A DNA stretch of 32,654 bases from Candidatus Acutalibacter stercorigallinarum (GTDB taxonomy: Bacteria; Bacillota; Clostridia; Oscillospirales; Acutalibacteraceae): the NCBI GenBank assembly GCA_019112625.1, contig DXIW01000010.1, positions 1 to 32,654 on the forward strand, given 5' to 3'. The notes under the pieces were generated by a model. That model was given only the letters and a program-made list of their open reading frames with translations, did no database searches and had not been told where the DNA came from. The translations under genes were made by a program, and so were the position numbers. Shown in pieces: positions 11,250-32,650 of the stretch. The stretch's first letter is position 1; every line of letters begins with the position of its first letter.

Positions 11250-11278
11250 TTGCAATTTCCAGGGGCAAAGGTTATTAT
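11250..11278 (+). promoter_or_regulatory. Promoter of S-layer gene 1
   Basis: TTGCAA at 11250-11255 and TATTAT at 11273-11278 are 17 bases apart. The block shared by all three S-layer genes starts at 11278, the last base of this -10 box. The -35 and spacer are therefore unique to copy 1 while everything downstream is common. Confidence 0.65.
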
Positions 11279-11434
11279 ATAGATAACTTCCACTCGCGGG
11301 GATTTGCGCCCCGGGAGAATCTAAAATTTAAGAGGGTTGAAATTATGAACAAAAGCAAGTTTCTGAAGAAATCACTTGCGATGCTCCTGGCTCTCATGCT
11401 AGTCGTCGCGATGATTCCGCTCAGTGCTTCCGCT
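11278..11434 (+). repeat. S-layer cassette head, copy 1 (157 bp)
   Basis: This block covers the end of the -10 box, the 5' UTR, the ribosome site AAGAGGG, the ATG and the signal-peptide codons. It is almost identical to 23175-23331 (direct) and 32494-32650 (inverted), with only a few substitutions by eye. The UTR contains a hairpin, CTCGCGGGG (11293-11301) with CCCCGGGAG (11309-11317), one mismatch and a 7-base loop. Similarity stops after the signal-peptide codons. Confidence 0.92.
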
Positions 11435-14400
11435 GAAACGAGCGCCGTTCCTACGATCGGCGTTGGTAACGCGATTGCCAAACTGGATGGCACCACGTAT
11501 ACCGTCGAGGCGGGCAGCACCGATGTCGTTCTGGGCGGCAACGCTCCCGCGGGCTCTCCGGAAGGCACCAAGGTCGTCTTTATCGACAAGGACGGCAAGG
11601 ACCTTGATCTGAGCACCAACGCCGAGGTCGATTTGACCGAGGTTGCCACCGTCTCCGACAATACTTACACTCTGGGCGTAGAGCTGCGCGTTCCCCAGGA
11701 GGGCAGCGCTGCCCCTGCTGTTACCAAGTACACTCTGGTTATCACCTATAACGAGGCTGTAAAGGGTACCAGCACCGCTATCAAGTATCTGAAGGATATC
11801 GCCGGCATGGCCGAGTACGAGATCGGCGCCGACAAGATCACCATCGTTGCCGAGTTTGGCAAGCCCATCGCGGCGAACTCTTTGGTTGGCACCAACTTCG
11901 TTGCTGCCGACCCCAATGCCACTGTCACTTACAGCAACAGCTCTGTGAAGGTCGTTTCCGACGACAGGCAGATCACCAAGAACTACGAGGTTGTCATCGA
12001 CATCCGCGACGGCCTGACCTCCTTCGAGGTAGAGGGCCAGATCGGCGAGACTGAGATCGACACCAACCCCGCCGACAGCGTGACCACCGTAGAGCTCACT
12101 GTGCCCTACGACACCGACCTGACCAAGCTGGTCCCCACCTTCGAGTTTGGCCCGGATGCTGAGGCGCTGACCACTTACGGTGACAACCAGGAGCTCACCA
12201 GCGGTGAGACCGAGCACGACTTTACCGCTACTAACGGCAAGCAGCTTATTCTGTGGACTGATGCCGATGCCCTGGAAGCTGGCTCTCCCTACCCCACCGG
12301 TAGCTGGTATGTTGTAAACGTCACCATCAACGTAGCCGACAACACCAACGGCGTGCTGGAGAGCATCCAGGTGAAGAGCACCAATGGCAACAGCAACGTC
12401 ATCGAGGTTGCCGCCCCTGGCACTGTCAACGTGGAGATGCCCAAGGGCTACGATTTCTCCGCTGCCACCAGCGTGACTGTGGAGCTCACCGGTTCTAAGG
12501 AGGCCAAGGTGGAAGTTCTTGGCCAGCCCGGCGCTTCCGTGGGCAACGGCGGCGAATTTGATACCGATGGCGAAGTCACCATCAGCGGTGTTGATATTTC
12601 CAGCAAGTCCTTTATCATCCGCGTTTCCTCCCAGGAGACGGGCGCTGAGTACAACGAGTACACCATCAACCTGTCCGCCGCTGCCAAGGCTGGCGTTGAG
12701 CTGACCAACATCATCGTCAAGGGCGATGTGGACGGCGATAACGTTCCCGAGACCTACGAGATGGGTGAGGACTACACCGTCACTCTGCCCTATACTGCCA
12801 AGGCTATCGTTTCCAAGCTCGCCCCCAATGACAACGACCCCGACCTTCGCATCTACTTCGCTGCCAGCACTGGCGCTACCGTAGGCTGCGGCGGCCCCGA
12901 CAATACCCTTGCTGTGCCGGACGGCGCTTCTCTGACCTACATCTTCAACCCCGGTGTTGATAGCGTGAAGAAGAACAACGAGCGCGATGTTACCGTGAGC
13001 AACGCTGGCAACAAAGAGACCTACACCATCAAGCTGGCTTACGAGGACGGCTTGACAGGCCATGTGCTGAACTCCGCCACTCTGGTGGGCGAGAACGATG
13101 TAGCTAAGATTACCACCGATAACACCTATAACACCGTGCCTGGCACTGCCAAGGACAAGAACGGCAACACCGTGAACACCCTGCGTGTGAACGTCCCCTC
13201 CGAGTACAGCTTCACCAGCGACACTTCTGTATACACCTCCGCCCTTGGGCTGAGCGAAGGCGCTGTGGCCTTTGTGGTTGCCGACGGTCAGGTCACCGAG
13301 AAACTCTCCGTTCTGGATGGAAAGGCTAAGGGTGTCCAGGATGTTACCACCATCCCTGTCAAGACCAACTTGGTAGATTCCAAGGGTGTTCTGGACACCG
13401 ACGCTGCCACGACCATCATCTATGTAGTTAGCGAGCAGGTCTACGTGGACGGCCAGGTTGCGAACAATGACTTCTACAAAGCCGACCTGCAGAAGCTGGT
13501 TGCGGATAAAAAGGCTGCTGCCTACTATGTGTACGGCGTGCATGCCGCTCCCAAGACCGGCGCCGACCTGGTGAGCATCGAGTCCACTCTGGACGAGTAC
13601 ATTGACGTCACCATGAAGGCCAACAATGTCATCGAGATCGCCGTGCCTTACAGCTACGAAAAGGCCAACAGCAACAAAGATGTGTTCTTCACCCTGAACT
13701 TCCGTGCCGATGCTATGGCTACCGTCCGTGCCAACAACGAAAGCAGCGGTTATCTGCTGGAGTCCGACCTGGGCAACCCCGACAATGCTGAGGATGCCAC
13801 CCAATTCAACGTCGCCAACGGCAAGAAATTGTATGCCGATGGGACAACTGGTGGTCAGGTGAATTCCATCATCGTCACCTCCGAGGACTACGTGGCTAAT
13901 GTGTCCGGCAAGAAGAACGAGTACACCATCGAGATCAAAGTGAAAGAGGCTGAGACCGGCGACGACCTGCTGTCTGTGGGCGCTTCCGGCGCTACCGCCA
14001 CTCCCGACACCAACCGCGATGTGAATTTGACCCTGCCCTACGGCTCTACCAAGTATCCCGTCAAGCTGGACATCGAGGCTTCTAAGCTGGCCACTGTTTA
14101 CGTGGGCACCTCTTCTAAGATCGACGAGCTGAAGGTTGACGCCAACCTCTATGATCCTGAGAAGGGCTACGACCTCAACAGCGACCTGAAGATCCTGGTG
14201 GTTGCTGAGAATAATCATGCCCAGCAGGTTTACACCCTGAAGACCACCGTGGCGGAGAACTTCTTCGACGTGGCGAAGGACCAGTGGTACTATGACGAGG
14301 TGCTGAAGGCCGCCTCCAATGGCTGGATCAACGGTACCAAGCCTGGCTACTACGAGCCCAACGGCACCATGACCCGCGGCGACTTCGCCCTGATCATCGC

Positions 14401-14785
14401 CCGCATCAAGAACTACAACCCCGCCCTGTACACCGAGTCCGCCTTCCCGGATGTGGAGTCCACCGACTACTACAGCGCTGCCATCGCCTACTGCAAGGAG
14501 ATGGGTTACCTGGGCGGCGAGAACGGGTACTTCAATCCCAAAGATCCCATCACCCGTGAGGAGATGGCCAAGATCATCTGCAACGCCGCCGGCGTTGACC
14601 AGGTGACCGATCCCACCAGCCCCTACGCCGACGACGACACTATCGCCGAGTGGGCCAAGGGCTATGTGTACGGCTGCCAGGCCGCCGAGATCATGATGGG
14701 CGACGAGAACGCGAACACCTTCGATGCTCGCTCCAACGCCACCCGTGCTGAGGCTGCCGCCGTACTGGTAAGAGCTTTCGCGTAA
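11345..14785 (+). CDS. S-layer protein 1 (SLH-domain surface protein)
   Basis: The 1146-residue exported protein starts with a signal peptide (MNKSKFLKK, then a hydrophobic core, cleavage after SASA near residue 29-30). About 940 residues of acidic, Thr/Val-rich beta-sandwich repeats follow, with recurrent LTVPYDTDLTKLVPTFE-like strands. Three SLH domains close it, at about 973-1025, 1033-1083 and 1093-1146, with TRGD, TREE and TRAE motifs. SLH domains bind pyruvylated secondary wall polymer, so it should sit on the cell surface. The body uses more GCT, GTT and AAG/AAC codons than neighbours, consistent with high expression. The ATG at 11345 follows AAGAGGG. Of the three copies it has the best visible promoter. 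Confidence 0.93.
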   Translation: MNKSKFLKKSLAMLLALMLVVAMIPLSASAETSAVPTIGVGNAIAKLDGTTYTVEAGSTDVVLGGNAPAGSPEGTKVVFIDKDGKDLDLSTNAEVDLTEVATVSDNTYTLGVELRVPQEGSAAPAVTKYTLVITYNEAVKGTSTAIKYLKDIAGMAEYEIGADKITIVAEFGKPIAANSLVGTNFVAADPNATVTYSNSSVKVVSDDRQITKNYEVVIDIRDGLTSFEVEGQIGETEIDTNPADSVTTVELTVPYDTDLTKLVPTFEFGPDAEALTTYGDNQELTSGETEHDFTATNGKQLILWTDADALEAGSPYPTGSWYVVNVTINVADNTNGVLESIQVKSTNGNSNVIEVAAPGTVNVEMPKGYDFSAATSVTVELTGSKEAKVEVLGQPGASVGNGGEFDTDGEVTISGVDISSKSFIIRVSSQETGAEYNEYTINLSAAAKAGVELTNIIVKGDVDGDNVPETYEMGEDYTVTLPYTAKAIVSKLAPNDNDPDLRIYFAASTGATVGCGGPDNTLAVPDGASLTYIFNPGVDSVKKNNERDVTVSNAGNKETYTIKLAYEDGLTGHVLNSATLVGENDVAKITTDNTYNTVPGTAKDKNGNTVNTLRVNVPSEYSFTSDTSVYTSALGLSEGAVAFVVADGQVTEKLSVLDGKAKGVQDVTTIPVKTNLVDSKGVLDTDAATTIIYVVSEQVYVDGQVANNDFYKADLQKLVADKKAAAYYVYGVHAAPKTGADLVSIESTLDEYIDVTMKANNVIEIAVPYSYEKANSNKDVFFTLNFRADAMATVRANNESSGYLLESDLGNPDNAEDATQFNVANGKKLYADGTTGGQVNSIIVTSEDYVANVSGKKNEYTIEIKVKEAETGDDLLSVGASGATATPDTNRDVNLTLPYGSTKYPVKLDIEASKLATVYVGTSSKIDELKVDANLYDPEKGYDLNSDLKILVVAENNHAQQVYTLKTTVAENFFDVAKDQWYYDEVLKAASNGWINGTKPGYYEPNGTMTRGDFALIIARIKNYNPALYTESAFPDVESTDYYSAAIAYCKEMGYLGGENGYFNPKDPITREEMAKIICNAAGVDQVTDPTSPYADDDTIAEWAKGYVYGCQAAEIMMGDENANTFDARSNATRAEAAAVLVRAFA

Positions 14786-14822
14786 GGTTTCAACTCTTAC
14801 TTAAATTTCATACCCCATAAGC
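14765..14822 (+). repeat. S-layer cassette tail, copy 1
   Basis: The last codons, the stop and 37 bases of 3' UTR are shared with 26941-26998 and, inverted, 29040-29103. Inside is an inverted repeat GTAAGAG (14768-14774) and CTCTTAC (14794-14800), 19 bases apart, spanning the stop codon. Confidence 0.9.
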
Positions 14823-14859
14823 AGGAAGGGCGGAGTGAAAACTCCGTCCTTCTTGCTTT
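14821..14859 (+). terminator. Terminator of S-layer gene 1
   Basis: A hairpin of about 10 bp (AAGGGCGGAG with CTCCGTCCTT, one G-T pair, loop TGAAAA) is followed by the T-rich CTTGCTTTG. The same design follows the other two S-layer genes. Confidence 0.8.
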
Positions 14860-14999
14860 GTCCGTGACCGGACAGGACGGGAAAATTCCTCTGGGCTTCG
14901 CACGAGCCAAGTTTCGCTTTGCTCAACTTACTCGGTCACAGACCAAAATTCCGGAACGCCCTTTGTGGAGGAATTTTCTCGTCCAGTCCGGTCACGGAC
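14860..14999. repeat. Palindromic dispersed repeat with 32-bp inverted ends
   Basis: Arms 14860-14891 and 14968-14999 are inverted copies matching at 30 of 32 positions, enclosing about 76 bases. The left arm and the adjoining bases CTGGGCTTCGC match the repeats at 21780-21845 and 28714-28779. The core resembles, in reverse, the AGCAAAGCGAAACTT stretch near 28790. It looks like a non-coding palindromic element, possibly two copies head to head. Confidence 0.8.
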
Positions 15000-15000
15000 C

Positions 15001-15029
15001 TTGCGAAAAATGGGGGGTTGTGCTATTCT
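15001..15029 (+). promoter_or_regulatory. Promoter of the GlpA-like operon
   Basis: TTGCGA at 15001-15006 and TATTCT at 15024-15029 are 17 bases apart. The -35 begins two bases after the end of the palindromic repeat, so the element abuts the promoter. Confidence 0.6.
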
Positions 15030-15090
15030 AGTTATGTATAGGCTCCCGGGGCGCGGGGGCCAATCGCCAAAAAGGAGATGGACGACGGCC

Positions 15091-16521
15091 ATGACAGTTT
15101 ACGACGTGATCGTGATCGGCGCGGGTGTGACCGGCAGCGCCGTGGCGCGGGAGCTCTCCCGCCGCCAGGGGCGGTTCCTAGTGGCGGAGCGGGCCAGCGA
15201 TGTGTGCGAGGGCACCAGCAAGGCCAATTCCGCGATTGTACACGCTGGGTTCGACGCCGAACCCGGCACCTTAAAAGCCAAAATGAACGTGCGGGGCAAC
15301 CAGCTGATGGACCAGATCGCCCAAGAGCTGGACGTGCCCTTCTCCCGGGTGGGCGCCTTTGTGGTGTGCCTGCGGGAGGAGGAGATGCCCAAGCTGGAGG
15401 AGCTGTACCAGCGGGGCCTGAAAAACGGCGTGCCCGACCTGGAGCTCCTCACCGGGGACGAGGCCAAGGCCTTAGAGCCCAACCTCACCGACGAGGTGTG
15501 CGGCGCCCTGTGGGCCCGCACCTCCGGCATCGTGTGTCCCTTTGCCCTCACCCTGGGCCTGGCGGAGAGCGCCGCCAAAAACGGGGTGGAGTTCTCCTTC
15601 GACACCGCCGTCACCGGGCTGGAACAGATCCCCGAGGGCTGGCTGGTAAAAACCAATCAGGGCGACTTTGCCGCCCGGGCGGTGGTGAACGCCGCCGGGG
15701 TCTACGCCGACGACGTGCACAACTGGGTGTGCGGGGAGAAGCTCTCCATCACCCCCCGGAAAGGGGAGTACTGCCTGCTGGACAAGACCGCCGGGTGCCA
15801 CGTGGGCCGCACCATCTTCCAGCTGCCCGGCAAATACGGCAAGGGCGTGCTGGTATCCCCCACCATCCACGGGAACCTGCTGGTGGGCCCCACCGCTGTG
15901 GACGACCCCGACCGGGAGGACACCGCCACCACTGCCGCAGGCATCGCCGATTTGACGGAGAAGGCCGCCCTCAGCGTGAAGAACGTGCCCATGCGGCAGG
16001 TCATCACCTCCTTTATGGGCCTGCGGGCCCACGAGGCCGGGGAGGACTTCGTGCTGGGAGAGAGCGCCGAAGGCTTCTTCGACGCCGCGGGCATCGAGAG
16101 CCCGGGCCTCACCAGCGCCCCGGCCATCGGGGAGTACCTGGCCGGGCTCATCGGGGAGAAGCTGGGCCTGGAGGACAAGCCCGATTTCGACCCCATCCGG
16201 AAGGGCGTGCCCCATCTGGCGGCCATGAGCCCGGAGGAGCGGGCGGAAAAAATCGCGGAAAACCCGGCCTACGGCAACATCATCTGCCGGTGCGAGGAAG
16301 TGAGCGAGGGCGAGATCTTAGACGCCATCCACGGCATCCTGGGCGCCAGGACCCTGGACGGCGTCAAGCGCCGCACCCGGGCGGGCATGGGCCGCTGCCA
16401 GGCGGGGTTCTGCTCCCCCCGGGTGATGGACCTGCTGTGCCGGGAGCTTAACATGGACCTGACCCAGGTGCGGAAAAACGGCGGCGATTCCCAGATCGTG
16501 CTGGAAAAGACCCGGGGCTGA
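15091..16521 (+). CDS. FAD-dependent glycerol-3-phosphate dehydrogenase-like protein (GlpA type)
   Basis: The 476-residue protein has an N-terminal FAD-binding Rossmann motif (VIGAGVTGSAVAREL), a DAO/GlpA-type middle (NSAIVHAGFDAEPGTLKAK; NAAGVYAD) and a C-terminal BFD-like [2Fe-2S] domain. Candidate iron ligands are Cys399 and Cys401 (CRC) and Cys436 and Cys441 (CQAGFC). The family oxidises glycerol 3-phosphate or related hydroxy acids. The ATG at 15091 fits the frame, with AAAGGAG at 15071-15077. The nearer ATG at 15078 is out of frame. It leads a three-gene operon with the next FAD protein (15-base gap) and a DUF1667 protein, an arrangement known in Clostridia. Confidence 0.87.
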   Translation: MTVYDVIVIGAGVTGSAVARELSRRQGRFLVAERASDVCEGTSKANSAIVHAGFDAEPGTLKAKMNVRGNQLMDQIAQELDVPFSRVGAFVVCLREEEMPKLEELYQRGLKNGVPDLELLTGDEAKALEPNLTDEVCGALWARTSGIVCPFALTLGLAESAAKNGVEFSFDTAVTGLEQIPEGWLVKTNQGDFAARAVVNAAGVYADDVHNWVCGEKLSITPRKGEYCLLDKTAGCHVGRTIFQLPGKYGKGVLVSPTIHGNLLVGPTAVDDPDREDTATTAAGIADLTEKAALSVKNVPMRQVITSFMGLRAHEAGEDFVLGESAEGFFDAAGIESPGLTSAPAIGEYLAGLIGEKLGLEDKPDFDPIRKGVPHLAAMSPEERAEKIAENPAYGNIICRCEEVSEGEILDAIHGILGARTLDGVKRRTRAGMGRCQAGFCSPRVMDLLCRELNMDLTQVRKNGGDSQIVLEKTRG

Positions 16522-16536
16522 GAGGAGAGACATACC

Positions 16537-17817
16537 ATGAGAATACAACATGACCTGGTCATTATCGGCGGGGGGCCCGCGGGCCTGGCCGCCGCCATCT
16601 CCGCCCGGGAGAACGGGGTGGAGGACGTGCTGGTGCTGGAGCGGGAAAAGGAGCTGGGGGGCATCCTCAACCAGTGCATCCACAACGGCTTTGGGCTGCA
16701 CACCTTCCAGGAGGAGCTCACCGGCCCGGAGTACGCGGCCCGGTATATCGAAAAGGCCAAGGCGCTTTCCATCCCCTACCGGCTGAGCACCACGGTGGTG
16801 GATTTAGAGCCCAGCGGGGACGGGGTGCTGGTCACCTCGGTGAGCCGGGAGGAGGGCCTGGTGCAGATCCAGGCCAAGGCCGCGGTGCTGGCCATGGGCT
16901 GCCGGGAGCGCCCCCGGGGCGCGCTGAATATCCCGGGCACCCGGCCGGCGGGGATTTTCTCTGCGGGCACGGCCCAGCGCCTGGTGAACATGGAGGGCTA
17001 CCTGCCCGGCAAGCGGGTGGTGATCTTGGGCAGCGGCGATATCGGCCTCATCATGGCCCGGCGCATGACCCTGGAGGGCGCCAAGGTGCTGTGCGTGGCC
17101 GAGCTGATGCCCTACTCCGGGGGACTGAAGCGGAACATCGTCCAGTGTCTCAACGACTACGGCATCCCCCTGAAGCTGAGCCACACGGTGGTGGACATCC
17201 AGGGCAAGGAGCGGGTCACCGGGGTGACCATCGCCGCGGTGGATGAGAAGCTGAAGCCCATCCCCGGCACGGAGGAGCACTTCGACTGCGACACCCTGCT
17301 GTTGTCCGTGGGCCTCATCCCGGAGAACGAGCTGTCCCGCCAGGTGGGGGTACAGCTCTCCCCGGTGACCAACGGGCCCAAAGTAAACGAGAGCCTGGAG
17401 ACCAACCTGCCCGGGGTGTTCGCCTGCGGCAACGTGCTCCACGTCCACGACCTGGTGGACTATGTGTCCGAGGAGGCGGTGCAGGCCGGCCGCAACGCCG
17501 CCAGGTACCTGCTGGAGGGCCGCAGCCCGGAGCAGAAGGAAATCCCCCTTACAGTGGCCGGGGCGGTGCGCTACACCGTGCCCTGCACCCTCTCCCCCCA
17601 GCGCATGGAGGCGGAGACCGTGGTGCGCTTCCGGGTGGGCCGCAACCTGCGGGACGCCCTGGTGCGGGTCACCGCGGACGGGAAAGAGCTGCTGCGGCGC
17701 AAGCGCCCGGTGATGGCCCCCGGCGAGATGGAGCAGGTCAAGCTGAAGCGGGAGTGGTTCACCGGCCAGGAGAAAGAGATTGTGGTAGAAGCCCTGGAAG
17801 CAAAGGAGGCGCAGTGA
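16537..17817 (+). CDS. NAD(P)/FAD-dependent oxidoreductase, partner of the GlpA-like protein
   Basis: The 426-residue protein has two dinucleotide-binding folds: VIIGGGPAGLAAA at the N-terminus for FAD and VVILGSGDIGLIMARR near 160-172 for NAD(P)H. The FAD-closing motif GVFACGNVLHVHD lies near 295. The layout is that of pyridine nucleotide-disulfide reductase-like proteins such as HcnB, but no redox-active CXXC is visible. It probably passes electrons between the GlpA-like subunit and a nicotinamide or another carrier (inference). It follows its neighbour by 15 bases with AGAGGAGAG upstream, and its stop is one base from the ATG of the DUF1667 gene. Confidence 0.85.
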   Translation: MRIQHDLVIIGGGPAGLAAAISARENGVEDVLVLEREKELGGILNQCIHNGFGLHTFQEELTGPEYAARYIEKAKALSIPYRLSTTVVDLEPSGDGVLVTSVSREEGLVQIQAKAAVLAMGCRERPRGALNIPGTRPAGIFSAGTAQRLVNMEGYLPGKRVVILGSGDIGLIMARRMTLEGAKVLCVAELMPYSGGLKRNIVQCLNDYGIPLKLSHTVVDIQGKERVTGVTIAAVDEKLKPIPGTEEHFDCDTLLLSVGLIPENELSRQVGVQLSPVTNGPKVNESLETNLPGVFACGNVLHVHDLVDYVSEEAVQAGRNAARYLLEGRSPEQKEIPLTVAGAVRYTVPCTLSPQRMEAETVVRFRVGRNLRDALVRVTADGKELLRRKRPVMAPGEMEQVKLKREWFTGQEKEIVVEALEAKEAQ

Positions 17818-17818
17818 T

Positions 17819-18181: not shown

Positions 18182-18197
18182 TCCCCGCCGCCATAGA

Positions 18198-18545: not shown

Positions 18546-18615
18546 GGAAGAAAAAAATCACATGGCAGGGCTGCCCGGGGCGCTGGGCGGCCCTGTTCCA
18601 GATAGGAGAGATAAC

Positions 18616-19335: not shown

Positions 19336-19354
19336 AAAATCGAAAAAATTTTCC

Positions 19355-19401
19355 AACTGTTGCTTTTGCAACAGGAAAACCCAAAGCCTTTGGGGTATCA
19401 T
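19355..19401 (+). promoter_or_regulatory. Paired dyads upstream of trxA
   Basis: Two perfect 7-bp dyads lie in series: CTGTTGC-TTTT-GCAACAG and CCCAAAG-C-CTTTGGG, followed by TATCAT at 19396-19401, a possible -10. No well-spaced -35 was found. They may be a regulator site for the thioredoxin genes or a stem ending the HAD transcript. Confidence 0.35.
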
Positions 19402-19456
19402 AAAATCACCGAAAGGGAAATACCATACTCCAGATAGAAAGGGACAGGTGAGTGCT

Positions 19457-19765: not shown

Positions 19766-19784
19766 ACACAAAAGCATCGAAGAG

Positions 19785-19808: not shown

Positions 19809-19828
19809 CGAAAAAAGGAGGAACCACC

Positions 19829-20755: not shown

Positions 20756-20768
20756 AAAATAGAACCGA

Positions 20769-23331: not shown

Positions 23332-26300
23332 GCCGAAGGCCCTGCCGTTACGGGAGTAATCGTAAACGGCGTGGCGGCAAAGGAGAGCGGCGACGCTAGC
23401 TTCACTGCTACGATCACCGAGCCCGCTGTGGGCGAGAAAGTGGTCGCAAAAGTGCAGGTAGAGAACGACGCCGGCACTGTGGCCCACTACACCGACGCCA
23501 CCCTGCTCAACAGCAACAATGCCAGCGTAGAAGGGGAGCTGTGGCGGTTCGAGCTGACCGACAAGGAGATGGAAAACAAATCCTTCACCTTCGACGTCCT
23601 GGTGGGCAACGTGAAAAAGCAGACCTACACCGTTACTTACACCACCGAGGCTGCTGATGGCGACGCCACTGTGAAGTCCGTCTACCTGGACGGCGAGTAC
23701 GATGATTGGAACAACATCGACACCAACAACGAGATCCACTACACTGTGGTGGCCCCCTACGGCCTGGACCTTGCTACGGGCACCCATTACGTAGAGGTGA
23801 CCCCCAACAGCGCCAAGGCTACTGTTGTGGATAGCGATGAAGAGTTCGAGACCAACAAGGACGGCGCCTACCTGGTTCCCGTTGACGATTACGACGTCCG
23901 CGTGCCCTTCACCGTGGTGGCCGAGAACGGCAAGCCTGCCAACTACACCGTCACCGTGGTGAAGCCCATCCCCTTCGCTTCCTTCTCCATGGAAGGTGAG
24001 CGCCACGAGTCCCAGATCAGCCGCGTGACCGAGGAGCCCGACTTCCAGGTAACTACCTCGACCGGCGAAGAGGCCACCGTGGAGCTGTACCCCTCCTACA
24101 AGTACGACGGCAAGTTCACCCCCACCTTCGAGACCAACTACGGCGTGAAGGTCGTGACCAAGACCGGCGTTGAGCTGCAGAGCGGCGAGACTTACGAATG
24201 GAAAGACCTGGCCACTCCTGCTCCCGATCGCACCAAGGACTACACCATTCTTGTTGATGTGAAGTACAGCGACGACAAGACCGAGGAATGGGCTCTGGCC
24301 TTCGACGTGCGCACCGATGGCAACACCGAGAAAGACACCATCCCCGCCATCAAGGGCGTGACCGTGAACAACTACGTGGCCGAGATCGAGGGCACCACCA
24401 TCACCCTCACCCTGCCCAAGAGCGTCCGCGAGAACGCCACTGACCTGAAGGTCAAGGTTTCCAATGCCACCGAAGTGAACGTGGTGGACAGCGATGAGGT
24501 TATCACTGCTACCGGCGATGCCACCGACGGCTTCGTTACTTTCAACAATATCGAGAAGGGCTTCTTCGAGACCGACAAGTACACCCTGCGTGTGACCGCC
24601 GCCATCGAGGAGTTCGACGCTGACGCCAAGGCTGTGCAGGACTACACCTTGAACATCGTCACTGCCCAGGTGGAGCAGCCCAAGCTCAACACCATGACCC
24701 TGCAGAACGCGGACGGCACCGTGACCCTGAAGGCCGACATCGACCAGTCCAAGGGCATTGTGTCCTTCAGCGACGACGACAGCGCCATCCCCTACAGCAT
24801 CAAGAGCGTGAAGGACCTGCACAATAAGGGCTGGAAGCTGTTCTGGTCTGTAAGCCAGGGCGCTACCTTCACCTACAACAACAGCAAGTCCGATCCCGGG
24901 AAAATTATGCCCCTGTCCGGCGAGACTGTAGAGAAAAATGCTTCCTACCTGCCCGACGACGCCAACCGTTTCGTGGGCGCCTGCGAGGCTGCCGACTACG
25001 TGATCGTCGCTGTGGAAGGCGAGTCCGCCAAGGCTTACAAGGTCGTGTTCACCAGCGCCGAGGCCAGCCATGAGAGCAAGCTCTCCGACATGAAGCTGAC
25101 CTGGAATGGCGTGACTAAGATGGAGCAGCTCAACACTGAGAACTATGTCAAAGCCAACGTGAACAACATGACCGGCGAGATCACCGCTTCCATTTTCAAC
25201 AAAGATTGGTGGAAGTTCAATAACATCGACCTTTCTGACGGGACGCTTGGCGGCAACAGTGAGTACACCTATAATGTTTCTAACAACTACGGTGGCGCTA
25301 CCGTGATCACTACTCTGCCCGAGGACGCGGAACTGTACTTTGTTGCTGTTGGTGGTGCGAATAACGCCCTCCGGAATGATGGTGCGCTCTATCGTGTAGA
25401 CGCCATGAACGAAACCAATGACGAGATTAAATACATCCTTCCTGGTGTAGGTTGGAACAAAAGCTACTCCTACGGCGATAGATACAATCACAACGATGGC
25501 GACATTGTTGCCCTGAAGCTCATCGTGATCAGCCAGGCCCTGGCGGAGAAAGTACAAGGCGTGGGCAGCGAAGAAGCAAAAGGAAAAATTGATAGCTATA
25601 ACGATTTGCTGAAGGATAGAACAGCGGATGGCCTCTACACCGAGTACAAGCTGACTCTCACCCAGGCTGCCCCCCGCACCGGCACCGACATTGACACCCT
25701 GACTGTGTACGACAACTACACCGGCGCCAAGGTCACTGCCGCTCCTGTGGGCAACACCATCACCCTGAACATCCCCTACTACTTCGTAGACGAGAACCGC
25801 AAGTCCTACAAGAACCTGTTCCTGGACTACACCCCCGAGCAGGGCGGCCAGACTGCTCTTGCCAGCTCTCAGGGCGGCGATGGGACTGCCGAACTGAACA
25901 ACCTGGTTTGGAAAGAGGACGGCACTCTCGACGAGACCCAGTCCGTCAAGCTGGTCTGGGATAACTCTGATAATCACAAAGCCTTTATGGCTTACGAGCC
26001 TGGCAAGACCGGTAATAATTATGGCTGGATCGGCCATAAGGACGCCGAAGGCAAGGATCAGTATCCCATCCAGGTAGAGGCTGAGGACGGCAACACCAGA
26101 AAGACCCCCTACAGCGTGGTCATCAACATTCTGGACGCCAACGGCGAAGCTGAGCTGAACAGCGTGACCATCGCCGGCTCCACCGCCACTCCCAACGGCA
26201 AGAACGTGACTGTGAACGTGCCCTTCGACACCGAGGTCACCAGCCTTGCCCCCGAGTTCAATGTCTCCGAGAACGCCTACGTCATCGAGGGCGGCTCTGA

Positions 26301-26961
26301 CGGTATCGGCAACGATACGGCCAGCCTGGAGAAGATGGTTGATGAGGGCGAGACCTTCAACTTCCTCACCTCCCGCACCTTCACCGTGGTCTCCGAGGAC
26401 GGCCAGAATTGGAACACCTACACCATCACTGTGGTGCCCTCCGAGTCCTTCCCCGACGTGACCACCGACAAGTGGTACTACGACGAGGTCATGACCGCTG
26501 CGAACAAGGGCTGGGTCACTGGCGACAACGGTTACTTCAAGCCCGATGACACGATGAAGCGCGGCGACTTCGCTCTGATCGTAGCCCGCATCCTGAATTA
26601 CGATCCCGACCTGTACACCACCGCTTTCCCGGATGTGGATGCCGATATGTACTACAGCAAGGCTGTGGCCTTCTGCAAGTACGAGGGTATTATCGACGGT
26701 GACGACAACGGCAACTTCAACGCCGAGGATCCCATCACCCGTGAGGAGATGGCGAAGATCATGTGCCAGGCTCTGAAGCTGAAGGTGACCGTCCCCGAGA
26801 AGACCTACGCCGACGACGCTGAGATCGCCGAGTGGGCCAAGGGCTACGTGTATGCTTGCCAGGAGGCCGGCATTATGGAGGGCTCTGGCGACAACTTCAA
26901 TCCCCGCGACAACGCCACCCGTGCTGAGGGCGCCGCTGTCCTGGTAAGAGCTTTCGCGTAA
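23242..26961 (+). CDS. S-layer protein 2 (SLH-domain surface protein)
   Basis: The 1239-residue exported protein has the same signal peptide as the other two copies, then about 1040 residues of beta-rich repeats and three SLH domains (about 1068-1120, 1127-1180 and 1188-1239) with KRGD, TREE and TRAE motifs. The central region resembles copy 3 (shared HESQISRVTEE/HTSQISRVTED, YTLNIVT, LNTMTLQ/MNTMTLQ stretches) and is unlike copy 1. Its third SLH domain differs from copies 1 and 3. The ATG at 23242 follows AAGAGGG. The visible promoter is weak, so the gene may be silent, condition-dependent, or activated by recombination (inference). Confidence 0.93.
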   Translation: MNKSKFLKKSLAMLLALMLVVAMIPLSASAAEGPAVTGVIVNGVAAKESGDASFTATITEPAVGEKVVAKVQVENDAGTVAHYTDATLLNSNNASVEGELWRFELTDKEMENKSFTFDVLVGNVKKQTYTVTYTTEAADGDATVKSVYLDGEYDDWNNIDTNNEIHYTVVAPYGLDLATGTHYVEVTPNSAKATVVDSDEEFETNKDGAYLVPVDDYDVRVPFTVVAENGKPANYTVTVVKPIPFASFSMEGERHESQISRVTEEPDFQVTTSTGEEATVELYPSYKYDGKFTPTFETNYGVKVVTKTGVELQSGETYEWKDLATPAPDRTKDYTILVDVKYSDDKTEEWALAFDVRTDGNTEKDTIPAIKGVTVNNYVAEIEGTTITLTLPKSVRENATDLKVKVSNATEVNVVDSDEVITATGDATDGFVTFNNIEKGFFETDKYTLRVTAAIEEFDADAKAVQDYTLNIVTAQVEQPKLNTMTLQNADGTVTLKADIDQSKGIVSFSDDDSAIPYSIKSVKDLHNKGWKLFWSVSQGATFTYNNSKSDPGKIMPLSGETVEKNASYLPDDANRFVGACEAADYVIVAVEGESAKAYKVVFTSAEASHESKLSDMKLTWNGVTKMEQLNTENYVKANVNNMTGEITASIFNKDWWKFNNIDLSDGTLGGNSEYTYNVSNNYGGATVITTLPEDAELYFVAVGGANNALRNDGALYRVDAMNETNDEIKYILPGVGWNKSYSYGDRYNHNDGDIVALKLIVISQALAEKVQGVGSEEAKGKIDSYNDLLKDRTADGLYTEYKLTLTQAAPRTGTDIDTLTVYDNYTGAKVTAAPVGNTITLNIPYYFVDENRKSYKNLFLDYTPEQGGQTALASSQGGDGTAELNNLVWKEDGTLDETQSVKLVWDNSDNHKAFMAYEPGKTGNNYGWIGHKDAEGKDQYPIQVEAEDGNTRKTPYSVVINILDANGEAELNSVTIAGSTATPNGKNVTVNVPFDTEVTSLAPEFNVSENAYVIEGGSDGIGNDTASLEKMVDEGETFNFLTSRTFTVVSEDGQNWNTYTITVVPSESFPDVTTDKWYYDEVMTAANKGWVTGDNGYFKPDDTMKRGDFALIVARILNYDPDLYTTAFPDVDADMYYSKAVAFCKYEGIIDGDDNGNFNAEDPITREEMAKIMCQALKLKVTVPEKTYADDAEIAEWAKGYVYACQEAGIMEGSGDNFNPRDNATRAEGAAVLVRAFA

Positions 26962-26998
26962 GGTTTCAACTCTTACTTAAATTTCATACCCCATAAGC
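26941..26998 (+). repeat. S-layer cassette tail, copy 2
   Basis: Identical by eye to 14765-14822, including the synonymous positions of the last codons. GTAAGAG (26944-26950) and CTCTTAC (26970-26976) are again 19 bases apart. Confidence 0.9.
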
Positions 26999-27037
26999 GA
27001 GAGGGACGGAGTGAAAGCTCCGTCCTTCTTGCTTTGT
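26998..27037 (+). terminator. Terminator of S-layer gene 2
   Basis: AGGGACGGAG and CTCCGTCCTT form a stem around TGAAAG, followed by CTTGCTTTG, as after copy 1. Confidence 0.8.
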
Positions 27038-27052
27038 CCCACAATGAAGGAG

Positions 27053-27103: not shown

Positions 27104-28630
27104 TCACTCCGCCTTTGCCAGGGCACGGAAGCCCTCCCTCATGGCCGGGTACAGGGACGCGTACACCCGGTAGAACTTCTCGTACTGGGGCACGTTCCCC
27201 GGGATGGGCTCCTGGGGCGGGTTGGTCTGGATCATGGCGTCGCAGGCCTCCTGCACCGAGGGGTACAGCCCCGCGCCCACGCCGGCCAGAATCGCCACGC
27301 CCAGGGCAGGCCCTTCTTTCGACTTCACTGTTTTCACCGGGCAGGCGAACACGTCTGCCAGCATCTGCCGCCACAGGGGGGAGCTTCCGCCGCCCCCGCA
27401 AGCCAGCATCTCGGCGGGCTGGATGCCCATGCCCCGCAGCACCTCCAGGCAGTCCCGCAGGGAGTAGGTGACCCCCTCCATCACGGCCCGGAGCATGTCG
27501 TACTTGCTGTGCATGGCGGACAGCCCGAAGAACACCCCACGGCAGTCCGGGTCCAGGTGGGGGGTGCGCTCCCCCATGAGGTAGGGCAGGTACAGCAGCT
27601 TGTTGCACCCGATGGGAACCCGCTCCGCCTGCTGGTCCATGAGCACATAGGGGTCCTTGCCCATGCCCGCGGCAGCGTCCTTCTCCGCCTGGCAGAAGTT
27701 GTCCCGGAACCACTTCAGGGACAGCCCCGCCCCCTGGGTGACGCCCATCACGTGCCAGGCGCCGGGCACGGCGCAGCAGAAGGTGTGCACCCGGCCCTTG
27801 GGGTCGATGGAGATTTCATCGGTGTGGGCGAACACCACCCCGGAGGTGCCGATGGTGGTAAAGGCCCGGCCGTCCCGGACCACCCCGGTGCCCACGGCAG
27901 CTGCGGCGTTGTCCCCAGCGCCGCCCACCACCAGGGTGCCCGCCGCCAGCCCGGTGCGGGCTGCCGCCTCCTGGGAGACCACCCCGGTGACCTCTGGGCT
28001 TTCGTAGACCTTGGGCAGCAGGGCCGGGTCGATGTCCAGCTTCTCCAGAACCTCCTGGCTCCAGCACCGGTGGGGCACGTCCAGCAGCTGCATGCCAGAG
28101 GCGTCCGAGACCTCGGTGGCAAAGTCCCCGGTGAGCATGTACCGCACGTAGTCCTTGGGCAGCAAAATGTGGGCGCACTTCTGGTAGATCTCCGGCTGGT
28201 GGTTGCGCACCCACAGAATTTTCGAGGCGGTAAAGCCCGTCAGCGCCGGGTTGGCGGTGATTTGGATGAGCCGCTCCTTCCCCACCTTTTCGGTGATCTC
28301 CTCACACTCGGCGGCAGTGCGCTGGTCGCACCAGATGATGGACCGGCGCAGTACCGCGCCGTCCTTGTCCAGCATCACCAGGCCGTGCATCTGCCCGGAG
28401 ATACCCAGGGCCTTGATGTCCCGGCTATCCACCCCGCTTTTCTCGATGACGGTCCGGATGGTCCCGGCGGCGGCGTTCCACCAGTCCAGGGGCTCCTGCT
28501 CCGCCCAGCCGTTTTTCTCCTGGTGCATGGGGTACTCGATGGTGGCGCTGGCCACCACCGTGCCCGCCCGGTCGAAGAGCACCGTCTTGGTGCCGCTGGT
28601 GCCCAGGTCAATGCCAATCAGGTATTCCAT
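27104..28630 (-). CDS. xylB: Xylulokinase
   Basis: The predicted 508-residue FGGY-family kinase phosphorylates D-xylulose to xylulose 5-phosphate, which ribulose-phosphate epimerase (9985-10608) can convert. Motifs include the N-terminal ATP loop GIDLGTSGTKT (residues 6-16), ISGQMHGLV, IIWCDQRT and the catalytic-base region GGAGDNAAAAVG with Asp near 239, then TIGTSGVV. The QMHG and CDQR patterns favour xylulokinase over glycerol kinase. The ATG at 28630 has AAAGGAG about 10 bases upstream. An in-frame ATG at 28651 overlaps that site and is rejected. It stands alone between two S-layer genes, with no xylose isomerase in the window. Confidence 0.92.
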   Translation of the reverse strand: MEYLIGIDLGTSGTKTVLFDRAGTVVASATIEYPMHQEKNGWAEQEPLDWWNAAAGTIRTVIEKSGVDSRDIKALGISGQMHGLVMLDKDGAVLRRSIIWCDQRTAAECEEITEKVGKERLIQITANPALTGFTASKILWVRNHQPEIYQKCAHILLPKDYVRYMLTGDFATEVSDASGMQLLDVPHRCWSQEVLEKLDIDPALLPKVYESPEVTGVVSQEAAARTGLAAGTLVVGGAGDNAAAAVGTGVVRDGRAFTTIGTSGVVFAHTDEISIDPKGRVHTFCCAVPGAWHVMGVTQGAGLSLKWFRDNFCQAEKDAAAGMGKDPYVLMDQQAERVPIGCNKLLYLPYLMGERTPHLDPDCRGVFFGLSAMHSKYDMLRAVMEGVTYSLRDCLEVLRGMGIQPAEMLACGGGGSSPLWRQMLADVFACPVKTVKSKEGPALGVAILAGVGAGLYPSVQEACDAMIQTNPPQEPIPGNVPQYEKFYRVYASLYPAMREGFRALAKAE

Positions 28631-28683
28631 TCCAACACAAGCTCCTTTCAAAGCGAGGGCCGTCCCCTCCGCTGTTTTCCTCT

Positions 28684-28712: not shown

Positions 28713-28713
28713 G

Positions 28714-28779: not shown

Positions 28780-29004
28780 GAGCAAGTTGAGCAAAGCGAA
28801 ACTTGACTCGTAGGGACAGGAAAATTCTCTCCCCACGAGTAAGTTGCACGAAGTGCAACTTACTCGGCAAGAACCGCTTGGGAGTTTGCAAAACTCCCAT
28901 TTCGCTAACGCGAAACCGCGCTTCTTGAGGCCGCCCATCATCTTTCACGGCGAGACATGTCGCGAAAGGCAACTGGGGGCCCTCTTCGCCGAGTATAAAG
29001 AAAA
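28780..29004. other. Hairpin-rich non-coding spacer
   Basis: Between xylulokinase and S-layer gene 3. It holds the 14-bp stem near 28836-28866, the stem GGGAGTTT/AAACTCCC near 28880-28899, and GAAACCGCGCTTCTTG, also seen near 21868-21882. No gene was recognised. Confidence 0.7.
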
Positions 29005-29040
29005 AGCAAGAAGGACAGAGCGCAAGCTCTGCCCTCCCTG
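29005..29040 (-). terminator. Terminator of S-layer gene 3
   Basis: On the minus strand AGGGCAGAG and CTCTGTCCTT form a stem around a short loop, followed by CTTGCTTTTTC. The design matches the terminators of copies 1 and 2. Confidence 0.8.
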
Positions 29041-29103
29041 CTTATGGGGTATGAAATTTAAGTAAGAGTTGAAACCTTACGCGTTAGCGAATGCTCTTAC
29101 CAG
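29040..29103 (-). repeat. S-layer cassette tail, copy 3 (inverted)
   Basis: Inverted relative to copies 1 and 2. The 37-base UTR part is identical, with six extra bases in the last codons that add Asn-Ala to the C-terminus. CTCTTAC/GTAAGAG arms (29094-29100 and 29062-29068) are conserved, 25 bases apart. Confidence 0.9.
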
Positions 29104-32100
29104 CACGGCAGCGGCCTCGGCACGGGTGGCATTGGAACGGGCGTCGAAGGTATTGGCGCTCTCGTCACCCATCATGATCTCGGCGGCCTGGCAGCCGTAC
29201 ACATAGCCCTTGGCCCACTCGGCGATCTCAGCGTCGTCGGCATAGAGGCTGTCGGGGTCGGTCACCTGCTCAACGCCGGCGGCGTTGCAGATGATCTTGG
29301 CCATCTCCTCACGAGTGATCGCACGCTCGGGGTAGAAGTTGCTGCCGTCACCGCCGATGATGCCCTCCTCTGCACAGAAGGCGATGGCAGCGCTGTAGTA
29401 CAGGTCGGAATCCACATCCGGGAAGGCACTGTCGCGGTACTGGGTCTCGTCGTAACCCATGATGCGGGCGATGATCAGGGCGAAGTCGCCGCGCTTCATA
29501 GAGTCCTCGGGCTTAAAGTAGCCGTTGGAACCATTGATCCAGCCCAGACCGGCAGCCTCCATGACCTCCTCGTAGTACCACTTGTCCTCGGCCACATCGT
29601 AGAACTTGTCGGACACGGTGACAGTGATGGTGTAAGTGTTGGTGGCCTTGCTGTCGTCCTCCGCGTGAACGGTAAACTTGCGGGCGGAGTAGAAGTTGTA
29701 GGTGTCGCCTTCCTTCACGATCTGGTTTTTGTCATCGGTGACGTAGGCGTTGGTGGAAACGTCGAACTCGGGGGCCAGCTTGGTGACCTCGGTGCCCAGG
29801 GGTACCGTGATGTTCACGTTCTTCTTCGCGTCGGGAGTGGCAGTGACGCCAGCCAGGGTGACGCTGTTCAGCACAGCGCCGGTGTTGGGCTCGGCCACCT
29901 TTACCACCAGATCGTAGTCGTTGACGCGATCAACGGTAGGATCTTCGGCAGTCACAGCGATCTCATCGAAGGTAACGTTATTAACAGCCAGCTTGTAAGA
30001 ACCATCGGCCTGCTTCGCCAAGGTAACGCGAGTGCTGTCGCCCACGACCACATCGCCGTCCTGATTGAGGGCCAAATCCTTCAGCACGGTTGAACCGTTA
30101 ACCTTCAGAGTCTCGCCTCCCTGCACGCCGAAGTCGAGGAACAGGTTATCCTCGGAAGGACGATCGGAATCGGTGAAGTAGTAGGGCACCGTGAGGGTGA
30201 TCACACCGTTGCCGATAGTAGCGGTGGCAGAGGTATTGCCAGTGTAGTGATCGTACACGGCGAAGGAAGTGATCTCCGTAGTCTGCCGGGGCTTCGCCTG
30301 GGTCAGAGTCAGTTGATAGATGCTGTACAGACCATGGGCTGTAGTATCCGCATCAAGAGAAGAAACCGTGTAAGTCTTTTCGGTCAAAGCCTCGCTGAGA
30401 ACATAGATATCGAGAGGCTTTTTACCATCGGCAGTATTGCTGTAAGAATCAGCGTAGTCGTAGTTTGTGCCATTGGACTGAACCAGCAGCTTAGTAATGG
30501 TAGCGGTATCCTCATTCAGCTCATCAATAGGAGTCAGGGCACCGTTTACGTTACGGTAGAAGAGTTCGGCGCCTTCGGGCAGGGTAGTCACAAACACAGG
30601 GCCGGCATTAGTGGCATTATAATCACTCCAAGCGCCATAAGGAATCTCGGCAGTGATTTTGCCCTTGCCGCCGTTGACAGGAGCGGTCACAGTGGCAGTG
30701 AGCTTTTCCGCATCAGTCAAGGAATCCCAAACGGTTTCGTCAGCCTCAGCCAGCTCCACAGTGCCCAGGGTGCTATTGGTGTTGGGCAGGGCGTTCTTGA
30801 AGATGACGGTGTACTCCTCGGTAGCGTCGCCGATGGCTACGGTGATAGGCTGAGAAGCAGCCTGGCCGATTTGACCATTAAACTTGCCATTGGTATGGTT
30901 GCCGTTAGGCAGATATTCATTGTAAGCAACCTCGCTAACGCTAGCACCGCTCTTCTTGATGGGCGTGCCGTTGTTGTAGGTCACAGTAGCGCCGTTAGTG
31001 GCAGTCCAGAACAACTTGTAGCCGCCGCCGGAGAAGTAAGCCAAATCGCCTGCACCGAAGGGCACCTCGAAGGTGATGGTGTTCTTATCGTGGTCGATGT
31101 CAGCCTCGATGCGGCCAGTGCCATCGGCCTTCTGCAGGGTCATGGTGTTCATCTGGGGGGCCTGCTCCGCCACAGTGACGATGTTCAGGGTGTAGTTCTT
31201 AACCTCGGGAGTGGTGGCGTCGAACTCGGGGCCAGCAGCGGTAACGCGCAGCTGGTAAGAGTTGCGGGTCAGGTCAACACCAGTGATGGTGGAACCGCCA
31301 GCAGAAACGTTATCCTTCTTATAGTTGACGATCTCCACCTTGCTGGTGGTGTCCAGGGTCAGGGTGCCGTTGACAACGCGCTGGGAAGCGGGCAGGGACA
31401 GGGTAATAGTGCTGCCCTCGATGGTGGCCACGTAGTTGTCCTTGCGCAGTTCCTTAATAGCGGCTACGGGGTCGGGGGTAATACCATCAAAGTCCAAATC
31501 CCAAGATTCGGTGGTACCTTCGCTGTAAGTAACGGTCAGCGGGATGATAAAACGCTGAAGAGGTTGACCTGCACTGACACTAGAGAGATCCACGAAATCA
31601 TTTGCATCGTAAGTCTCGCCAGATTTGATCTCTACAGTATTGTTGGTGTTTCTGTCTTTTGCGGTAATCACAACATTGTAGTTAACTTCAAAAACGGGAG
31701 TGAATTCAAAGGAGTGATTCGCATCAACAGTTGCGCCAAAAGGTAGGTACACCTCAATGGTATGGTCGGATGTATCATCAGCGTTTACAAAGTCGATATC
31801 CTCTGTTACACGGCTGATCTGAGAGGTATGCCGCTGGCCCTCCACAGCGAAGGTGGCGAAGGGCTTGGGCTGTACCAGGGTCACGGTGTAAGAGGCCTCC
31901 TGGGTGGTATTCTCAGCCACAACGGTGAAAGAAGTCTTGTCGTTCAGGCCAATAGTGTTATCGAACACCCATACGCCGCCGGTCTTGGTAGCCGCAGGAG
32001 TAGCAACAGTGGAGTTGTCACCGGTGGTGGTCACCTTCACAGTGCCAGCGGTCTGGCCGTAGGGCAGCACGACGGTGAAGTCGTTGCCCTCGCGGATCAC

Positions 32101-32583
32101 GTCGTAGCAGCCATCCACAGAGACGGTCTCAACGCCGGTGTCGGCCTCGGGCTCGGTGAAGGACAGAGCCAGGGTGCACTCCTGATCGGGCTCTTTGTCC
32201 TGCGCGTTGGTGAACACAGCGAAGTTGTACTCACCCTCGGCAACAGGGGCCTTAATGGTGTAGGCAAAGGTGCCAGTGCCAGTGGGGGTAGTGGCCTCGT
32301 TGTAAATGCCATTGGCATCCATGAAGCGCACGTCGCCGCCCTCGTCGCCCACGGAGACGGAAATCGTCACCGTGTCGCTGGGACCGGGCTCCACAATGGA
32401 GTAGCTGTAGGCCCCGTTGCTCCCTTCGGCCTCCTCGGGGGTGCCGGTGCCGCCGTTTTCATTTACGGCGACCCAGACCTTGTAGGCCTCGGCAGCGGAA
32501 GCACTGAGCGGAATCATTGCGAGGACCAGCATGAGAGCCAGGAGCATCGCAAGTGATTTCTTCAGAAACTTGCTTTTGTTCAT
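29077..32583 (-). CDS. S-layer protein 3 (SLH-domain surface protein)
   Basis: The 1168-residue protein has the shared signal peptide with two substitutions at most, beta-rich repeats, and three SLH domains (about 990-1042, 1050-1100 and 1112-1168). It is a mosaic: the middle (RHTSQISRVTED, TLNIVTVAEQ, MNTMTLQKADG) matches copy 2, while the SLH end (ICNAAGVEQVTDP, CQAAEIMMGDESANTFDARS) matches copy 1. The C-terminus is two residues longer (AFANA). The DNA of the SLH part differs from copy 1 at many third positions, so this exchange was not recent. The ATG at 32583 follows AAGAGGG. Its promoter lies beyond the window. Confidence 0.93.
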   Translation of the reverse strand: MNKSKFLKKSLAMLLALMLVLAMIPLSASAAEAYKVWVAVNENGGTGTPEEAEGSNGAYSYSIVEPGPSDTVTISVSVGDEGGDVRFMDANGIYNEATTPTGTGTFAYTIKAPVAEGEYNFAVFTNAQDKEPDQECTLALSFTEPEADTGVETVSVDGCYDVIREGNDFTVVLPYGQTAGTVKVTTTGDNSTVATPAATKTGGVWVFDNTIGLNDKTSFTVVAENTTQEASYTVTLVQPKPFATFAVEGQRHTSQISRVTEDIDFVNADDTSDHTIEVYLPFGATVDANHSFEFTPVFEVNYNVVITAKDRNTNNTVEIKSGETYDANDFVDLSSVSAGQPLQRFIIPLTVTYSEGTTESWDLDFDGITPDPVAAIKELRKDNYVATIEGSTITLSLPASQRVVNGTLTLDTTSKVEIVNYKKDNVSAGGSTITGVDLTRNSYQLRVTAAGPEFDATTPEVKNYTLNIVTVAEQAPQMNTMTLQKADGTGRIEADIDHDKNTITFEVPFGAGDLAYFSGGGYKLFWTATNGATVTYNNGTPIKKSGASVSEVAYNEYLPNGNHTNGKFNGQIGQAASQPITVAIGDATEEYTVIFKNALPNTNSTLGTVELAEADETVWDSLTDAEKLTATVTAPVNGGKGKITAEIPYGAWSDYNATNAGPVFVTTLPEGAELFYRNVNGALTPIDELNEDTATITKLLVQSNGTNYDYADSYSNTADGKKPLDIYVLSEALTEKTYTVSSLDADTTAHGLYSIYQLTLTQAKPRQTTEITSFAVYDHYTGNTSATATIGNGVITLTVPYYFTDSDRPSEDNLFLDFGVQGGETLKVNGSTVLKDLALNQDGDVVVGDSTRVTLAKQADGSYKLAVNNVTFDEIAVTAEDPTVDRVNDYDLVVKVAEPNTGAVLNSVTLAGVTATPDAKKNVNITVPLGTEVTKLAPEFDVSTNAYVTDDKNQIVKEGDTYNFYSARKFTVHAEDDSKATNTYTITVTVSDKFYDVAEDKWYYEEVMEAAGLGWINGSNGYFKPEDSMKRGDFALIIARIMGYDETQYRDSAFPDVDSDLYYSAAIAFCAEEGIIGGDGSNFYPERAITREEMAKIICNAAGVEQVTDPDSLYADDAEIAEWAKGYVYGCQAAEIMMGDESANTFDARSNATRAEAAAVLVRAFANA

Positions 32584-32650
32584 AATTTCAACCCTCTTAA
32601 ATTTTAGATTCTCCCGGGGCGCAAATCCCCGCGAGTGGAAGTTATCTATA
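32494..32650 (-). repeat. S-layer cassette head, copy 3 (inverted, 157 bp)
   Basis: Reverse complement of 11278-11434 and 23175-23331, with a few substitutions. The window ends four bases beyond it, so the extent of similarity upstream and the promoter cannot be seen. Confidence 0.92.

Follow-up and report, generated by a model that had tools for sequence, protein, structure and literature searches.

Several bacteria are known to route a family of surface-protein genes through a single promoter. As described in the passages of the reports cited here, the Vpma, Vsp and Vsa families of Mycoplasma agalactiae, M. bovis and M. pulmonis consist of silent genes that are joined to one active promoter by site-specific inversion, with putative recombination sites a short way before the start codon and a recombinase gene (Xer1, Mbr, HvsR) in the locus (PMC2268961, PMC5634654). 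In Lactobacillus acidophilus, slpA and slpB are served by one expression site, and a silent, promoterless gene is brought to it by inversion of a segment (PMC6015585, citing Boot 1996). Eight sapA copies are predicted in two genomes of Campylobacter fetus (PMC4943207), and CwpV is a phase-variable cell-wall protein of the Clostridium relative Clostridioides difficile (PMC2784873). Here we describe a locus that may belong among these systems, in a metagenome-assembled genome (MAG) of Candidatus Acutalibacter stercorigallinarum, in which three genes for S-layer-type proteins with SLH domains begin with the same sequence. The window, by which we mean the whole stretch of DNA that was analysed, is the entire contig C70 (32,654 bp) of this MAG, which is 2.19 Mb long, is split into 70 contigs and is 86% complete.

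An earlier note on the window had likened the three genes to the sapA switching locus and had named homologous recombination as the simplest route. The likeness stood in part: across the genus we find one expression site and promoterless cassettes, and the shared tails that were also part of it are not general. That homologous recombination alone is the simplest route is not supported in view of two observations, namely a tyrosine recombinase that is linked to the head in most relatives with several heads, and an inverted-repeat site in exact register. The reading that we favour, at roughly two chances in three, is that these genes form a one-promoter, silent-cassette S-layer switch that would be driven by the linked tyrosine recombinase, with homologous exchange keeping the heads alike.

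The shared head and the expression site

The three genes are SLP1 (positions 11345..14785, plus strand; 1146 amino acids, aa), which lies downstream of a promoter in the current assembly, SLP2 (23242..26961, plus strand; 1239 aa), a silent-type cassette, and SLP3 (29077..32583, minus strand; 1168 aa), a cassette in inverted orientation. All three open reading frames (ORFs) are intact, and each has three C-terminal SLH stretches and an N-terminal signal-peptide-like sequence, the two features on which we call the products S-layer-type proteins. Each gene begins with a head, at 11278..11435 (copy 1, plus strand), 23175..23332 (copy 2, plus strand) and 32489..32654 (copy 3, minus strand, its 158-bp part running from 32650 to 32493). 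The three pairs of heads are identical at 155, 155 and 154 of 158 bases, after which identity falls to 0.17 to 0.50 per 30-bp step, and the bodies beyond share 31 to 40% pairwise protein identity; near-identical heads, one of them inverted, in front of different bodies were what the earlier note had described. The head consists of the 5' untranslated region (UTR) and the first 30 codons, which specify the signal peptide. Copy 1 contains, on the plus strand, a candidate recombination core TATAGAT (its first 7 bases, 11278-11284), a right arm AACTTCCACTC (11285-11295), a hairpin in the 5' UTR (11293-11317), the ribosome-binding site (RBS) region and the signal-peptide codons. Because copy 3 extends to the last base of the contig, it matches copy 2 over 166 bp, and the upstream flank of gene 3 lies off the contig, with AGTT all that is visible of it. 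A search of the whole MAG found the head at these three places and no fourth.

The genes also share tails, at 14715..14863 (plus strand; end of the SLH coding region, stop codon and 3' UTR), 26891..27039 (plus strand) and 29000..29103 (minus strand). As had been claimed, a stretch of about 60 bp that surrounds the stop codon and runs past it is near-identical in the three genes, except that gene 3 has 6 bp inserted ahead of its stop; the tails of genes 1 and 2 are 90% identical over 149 bp. Elsewhere in the genus the tails are not always shared, and they differ in several genomes, which points to the head as the active part.

Two features go beyond the earlier note: gene 1 alone has a promoter that ends at the head, and the first 7 bases of the head resemble a recombination core. 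The sigma-70-type promoter of the expression site (11250..11278, plus strand) is made up of TTGCAA (11250-11255), a 17-bp spacer and TATTAT (11273-11278), and its last base is the first base of the head. No such block lies upstream of head copy 2. We followed this arrangement through a genus set (Acutalibacter/Neglectibacter) of 29 genomes, the window's included, with Acutalibacter, Neglectibacter and Neglecta among their names; each species is represented by one genome, and rearrangements are compared between species. Head matches occur in 25 of the 29, with up to eight per genome when fragments are included. The promoter block stands beside a head in 18 genomes, always at one syntenic locus, and none of the other 39 head copies with at least 60 bp of readable upstream sequence fits the promoter pattern (nine copies that were cut too short or whose head start was unrecognised were left out of this test). 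The block bases CTTGC and TTT are invariant in 14 of 14 promoter rows. In N. timonensis only, the block beside a head was found twice, 228 bp apart across an N, and in G014 one further contig terminates within the block. Since simple sigma-70 scoring does not separate silent flanks (scores 6 to 10) from shuffled sequences, the promoter claim rests on genus-wide conservation. The silent copies are presumably not expressed.

The upstream flanks that bear the promoter form one syntenic group, to which the flank in G011, whose promoter is missing, also belongs; many of the silent flanks fall in four other groups and the remainder stand alone. The neighbourhood that marks the expression site genus-wide occupies 7126..11002 of the window and holds, all on the plus strand, genes for a G5/3D protein (7126-8556) and an AEC-type transporter (9007-9939), rpe (9976-10608) and a small conserved ORF (10601-11002). 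A sample of 398 genomes of the family has the UTR motif in six: five of the six genomes that represent the window's genus in the sample, and one genome of another genus, with a single copy. In the latter (G226:C6:5085, L227), a lone S-layer-type gene with this type of promoter stands behind the same G5/3D-AEC-rpe genes and is followed by a Na/H exchanger and nusA. This is probably the ancestral state.

The hairpin with which the UTR starts has a 9-pair stem with 85% paired cells across 17 genomes. Its covariation score, for a stem that was defined from the same sequences, is 0.271 versus 0.107 in shuffles, with none of 500 shuffles as high; the number of stem pairs with two-sided change, 4 versus 2.7 (88 of 500 as high), is less telling. 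An invariant 28-mer of the UTR was considered as a recombination site and rejected, since it is found just as much in genomes with one head and in the single-copy genome of another genus; more likely, it serves the mRNA. Its pattern has no match in viral contigs. In the single-contig genome G003, the left part of the head UTR is also copied before an unrelated 32-aa ORF (G003:C1:36421, L046).

Heads are most alike within a genome. The median identity of the UTR is 1.00 within genomes (66 pairs, three genomes with longer UTRs omitted) versus 0.84 between genomes, and that of the signal-peptide DNA is 0.99 (77 pairs, lowest 0.63) versus 0.82; body segments are 0.52 identical both within and between genomes, with a few pairs that start alike. 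Of 44 heads, 39 have their closest match, or one tied for closest, in their own genome, and the five exceptions include the window's third head, which is closer by one base to a sister species. Because two bodies of one genome differ as much as bodies of different genomes do, a simple recent duplication of entire genes, which the earlier note had named as the explanation that would count against switching, is excluded as a general cause of the matching ends. The head identities indicate that exchange at the head is continuing or recent.

The bodies show no attachment to particular sites. Comparisons were confined to those in which a second genome carries a body at the same site and offers a choice of at least two. 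The best match of a body lies at the same site in 29 of 104 such comparisons (32.2 expected by chance), in 9 of 52 when expression-site bodies alone are taken (15.3 expected), and in 10 of the 27 that involve G003 (8.7 expected), which amounts to an assortment of bodies independent of the fixed sites. One body (72-73% protein identity) stands behind the flank of the expression site in G011, whereas its flank in G021 is a silent one. In G013 the expression site has a xylulokinase gene after the cassette tail, and in G000 and G016 silent sites do. The xylulokinase gene is the divergent neighbour of an oxidoreductase gene in G005, G013, G015, G016 and G018, a pair that is split in the window. Alternative orders in related genomes had been put forward as a check, and gene order indeed differs between species. 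Where two neighbouring heads lie within 20 kb on one contig (10 pairs, nine of them inverted and two with a partial head), seven pairs converge, two diverge and one is direct, the last being heads 1 and 2 of the window.

The head edge and a linked tyrosine recombinase

The shared head opens with TATA, a variable triplet and then AACTTC[CA]ACTC, and at silent copies this opening lies within an imperfect inverted repeat of the form 11-7-11. Left arms of silent sites match the inverted right arm at a mean of 6.14 of 11 positions (43 sites, range 4 to 10), compared with 1.8 to 3.7 at 27 other offsets, 2.2 to 3.6 with other core lengths and 3.37 with shuffled arms; sites that agree in all 40 bases to the left were entered once, and sites within one genome are not independent. 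In the window, the left arm of silent site 2 (23164..23174, plus strand) matches at 5 of 11. The mean is 7.6 at 14 sites beside the recombinase described below versus 5.4 at 28 sites elsewhere, with a G026 site (7/11) omitted from the former and the divergent G002 site placed among the latter, and the best arms, at 10 of 11, are those beside the recombinase in G006 and G015. Core and right arm are common to active and silent genes, left-arm symmetry occurs at silent sites only, and the homology of the promoter copy with silent copies begins at the core, at the same base in copy after copy.

All 15 recombinase-adjacent sites, which are orthologous and hence not independent, have RTTGAA direct repeats, at 2.40 per 160 bp versus 0.28 expected; other silent sites have 0.03 per 160 bp. 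Lying beside the core, these RTTGAA/GTTGAA repeats resemble the arm-type sites of integrases. Several silent flanks of other groups (e.g., in G018, G005, G015 and G010) contain TTCAACCCTC or near variants of it, the reverse complement of GAGGGTTGAA of the head leader, and TTCAAY occurs in flanks of those groups at 0.47 per 160 bp versus 0.13 expected.

The recombinase is a 480-aa protein whose gene adjoins a silent head in G016 and which matches Pfam Phage_integrase (PF00589) with an E value of 1.6e-25. That it might be XerC or XerD, with a role in dimer resolution, was rejected, as its NCBIfam scores of 84.7 and 82.7 bits are far below the equivalog cut-offs of 335 and 330. Its nearest solved relatives include integrases and Int proteins, and an N-terminal SAM-like match is just under the cut-off. 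One orthologue, 59 to 84% identical to the G016 protein, is present in 18 of the 29 genomes, G016 counted; weaker relatives (45-49%) in G003, G004, G011, G026 and G027 were left uncounted. Motif blocks (R, K, HxxR, H, Y) that we take to contain the catalytic residues are invariant in the 18 sequences. The recombinase is found in 16 of 17 genomes with at least two heads versus 2 of 12 with fewer (Fisher P = 3e-5), and in 15 of the 18 a head core, that of a silent head, lies 78 to 349 bp past its stop codon. In the three exceptions, the cassette is about 3.3 kb away (G018), the orientation is divergent (G002), or the contig ends 81 bp after the stop (G001).

Of the 13 genomes that were examined, 11 have the same two genes next upstream of the recombinase gene, for a substrate-binding protein and a DUF4340 protein, and in at least five an ABC permease lies past this pair. 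Conserved, non-mobile neighbours of this kind make the recombinase look like a resident gene rather than a visiting element. Its pairwise identity tracks that of the expression-site AEC transporter (r = 0.78; 14 genomes, 91 pairs). The window itself has no recombinase gene among the 23 ORFs scanned with Pfam, a few of which are probably spurious frames, and the earlier note was right on this point.

A proposed switch and its alternatives

We propose a switch that builds on the one chromosomal locus with the promoter and on the several full-length S-layer genes elsewhere that lack it but start with the head. The tyrosine recombinase, whose gene lies beside one silent cassette in relatives, would be dedicated to this switch and would exchange strands at the 7-bp core on the left edge of the head. 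What lies to the left of the core, whether promoter or silent flank, would stay put, and what lies to its right (UTR hairpin, RBS, signal peptide, body and downstream DNA) would move. Exchange between inverted heads would cause a reversible inversion of the intervening segment and place a new body under the promoter; exchange between direct heads would excise the intervening DNA, an expectation with which the rarity of direct pairs fits. Possible inversions in the window span about 2 to 21 kb, as the earlier note had worked out, and since the promoter-bearing gene of N. timonensis stands tail to tail with another cassette, a 7-kb inversion there would swap the two. Homologous exchange among aligned heads would keep the UTR and the signal peptide alike. 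Strand exchange at the core would account for the point at which homology starts, and homologous recombination alone leaves a start at the same base unexplained. We infer that the recombinase acts on the head-edge site and that switching takes place within a strain. As for the origin of the system, it is an even call whether a resident tyrosine integrase with an attP-like site (the near-symmetric 11-7-11 core plus GTTGAA repeats), situated beside conserved transporter genes, became a dedicated shuffler that passes whole S-layer genes through one promoter, from several chromosomal sites and genus-wide.

Several observations weigh against a switch driven by this recombinase. At expression sites, the left arm matches at 3.50 of 11, about the shuffled level, and promoter-bearing copies have a weaker symmetry that lies further left (5.06 of 11, with a 3-bp core); the expression site is therefore not the same symmetric site. 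Covariation between the arms, at one position, was seen in 12 of 15 (P = 0.09). Exchange at the core would not by itself homogenise 84 nucleotides (nt) of signal-peptide codons, and some silent copies within G018, G025 and G028 share more upstream than the head. The expression site of G011 (G011:C53:4496, L100) is without its promoter and half of the UTR, and that of G016 (G016:C6:187579, L077) has a truncated UTR from which part of the hairpin and RBS region is gone; possibly these damaged leaders reflect decay of the switch, or else assembly errors. G001 and G026 carry the recombinase with one visible head each. Rearrangement is seen between species only, given one genome per species. Apart from one, the assemblies of the genus are split into many contigs, and a contig end is no more than 200 bp away for 21 of 65 head copies, so that some joins of flank and body may be wrong. 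Finally, the recombinase was not found in the 86% complete MAG of the window, where the best match was partial and 34% identical, nor was its neighbour gene, in a search run without a positive control. The MAG has ten integrase-family matches (nine above the cut-off) and two resolvases, none on the window's contig. The window's species presumably has the recombinase.

Among the alternatives, the one that fares best, although we judge it unlikely, is that RecA-type homologous recombination over the 158-bp heads, and over the tails where they are shared, does all the switching and the recombinase does something else. Heads and some tails are long enough and sufficiently near-identical for it, head homogeneity past the core requires some homologous exchange in any event, and both the missing recombinase of this MAG and the expression sites without a left arm would be in keeping with it. 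What it leaves aside is that homology between promoter and silent copies repeatedly stops leftward at the same base, that the inverted arms exactly flank the core, and that the recombinase lies beside a head in 15 of 18 genomes and tracks those with several heads.

We think it improbable that the genes undergo concerted evolution only, with gene conversion keeping their 5' ends alike, each gene expressed in place and no switching. The homogeneity of heads within a genome is the expected product of conversion, and weak promoters in silent flanks are conceivable, their sigma-70 scores being in the range of shuffles; the random assortment of bodies, the varied downstream neighbours of the expression site and the inverted head pairs suggest, however, that bodies move too. 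We give equally little credence to the recombinase being part of an integrative element for which the S-layer head serves as attachment site, with the cassettes as a by-product. Its integrase domain and sub-cut-off SAM-like match, its integrase and Int relatives, and direct repeats that resemble arm-type sites would suit such an element, but in 11 of 13 genomes its upstream genes are the same and non-mobile, each genome that carries it has one orthologue, and its divergence follows that of the AEC transporter. That assembly paired bodies with flanks at random, across a repeat that exceeds the read length, is very improbable, for even with heads so often near contig ends (the window itself terminates in one) and the N. 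timonensis promoter region duplicated across an N, the single-contig G003 has the same design, comparisons that involve it show the same absence of linkage between site and body, and neither the homogeneity of heads nor the uniqueness of the promoter hinges on how sequences were joined.

Other features of the window and comparison with known systems

Between SLP1 and head 2 lies a metabolic block (14965..21734, plus strand) that opens with a DAO/Fer2_BFD oxidoreductase gene (14965-16521), and the xylulokinase (FGGY) gene is at 27104..28651 on the minus strand, separated from the oxidoreductase gene by cassettes. The labels glpA and glpK for two genes of the window were dropped when family searches returned DAO/Fer2_BFD oxidoreductase and xylulokinase. 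A 66-nt intergenic repeat, with copies 74 to 98% alike, occurs close to the SLP1 tail (14860-14925 and, inverted, 14968-14999), ahead of head 2 (21780-21845) and close to the SLP3 tail (28714-28779), and may have helped local rearrangements. Short repeats at 18170-18526 and 22283-22728 comprise four 61-nt copies spaced by about 100 bp and three 80-nt copies. An Rfam scan of the window gave no match at the gathering score. SLH matches of the MAG are also present on nine other contigs.

If the S-layer-type genes are indeed exchanged through one promoter by the linked recombinase, a group of gut Clostridia gains a programmed change of its whole outer coat, of relevance to phage resistance and host antibodies, and the system supplies a recombinase, a site and a testable prediction. 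We take G003, a single contig of 3.80 Mb, to be Acutalibacter muris, which belongs to a defined mouse community in wide use; if so, long-read or mouse data would allow a direct measurement of switching. Searches of the open-access literature on surface variation in Acutalibacter/Neglectibacter and on S-layers with tyrosine recombinases gave no earlier report among the matches listed.

As far as the cited passages describe them, the Vpma, Vsp and Vsa loci are alike in having silent genes, one active promoter and a recombinase linked to the gene family. Those genes encode mycoplasma lipoproteins, whereas here they encode large SLH proteins at several chromosomal sites in gut Clostridia, the recombinase gene lies beside a silent site, and the signal peptides are homogenised. 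With slpA and slpB, the genus shares S-layer-type genes, one expression site and a silent gene without a promoter. There, two genes lie on one 6-kb segment; here, many genomes have at least three cassettes, spread over different contigs, whose products have SLH anchors and to which a recombinase gene is linked. The sapA/sapB system of the Gram-negative Campylobacter fetus has conserved 5' ends, a single promoter and silent cassettes, and works by homologous recombination over long heads; it is not known to have a dedicated site-specific enzyme or SLH domains, and the likeness that the cited passage supports is that of multiple S-layer gene copies. CwpV, finally, is controlled by an inversion that acts as an on/off switch near one gene, whereas the present locus would exchange alternative full genes.

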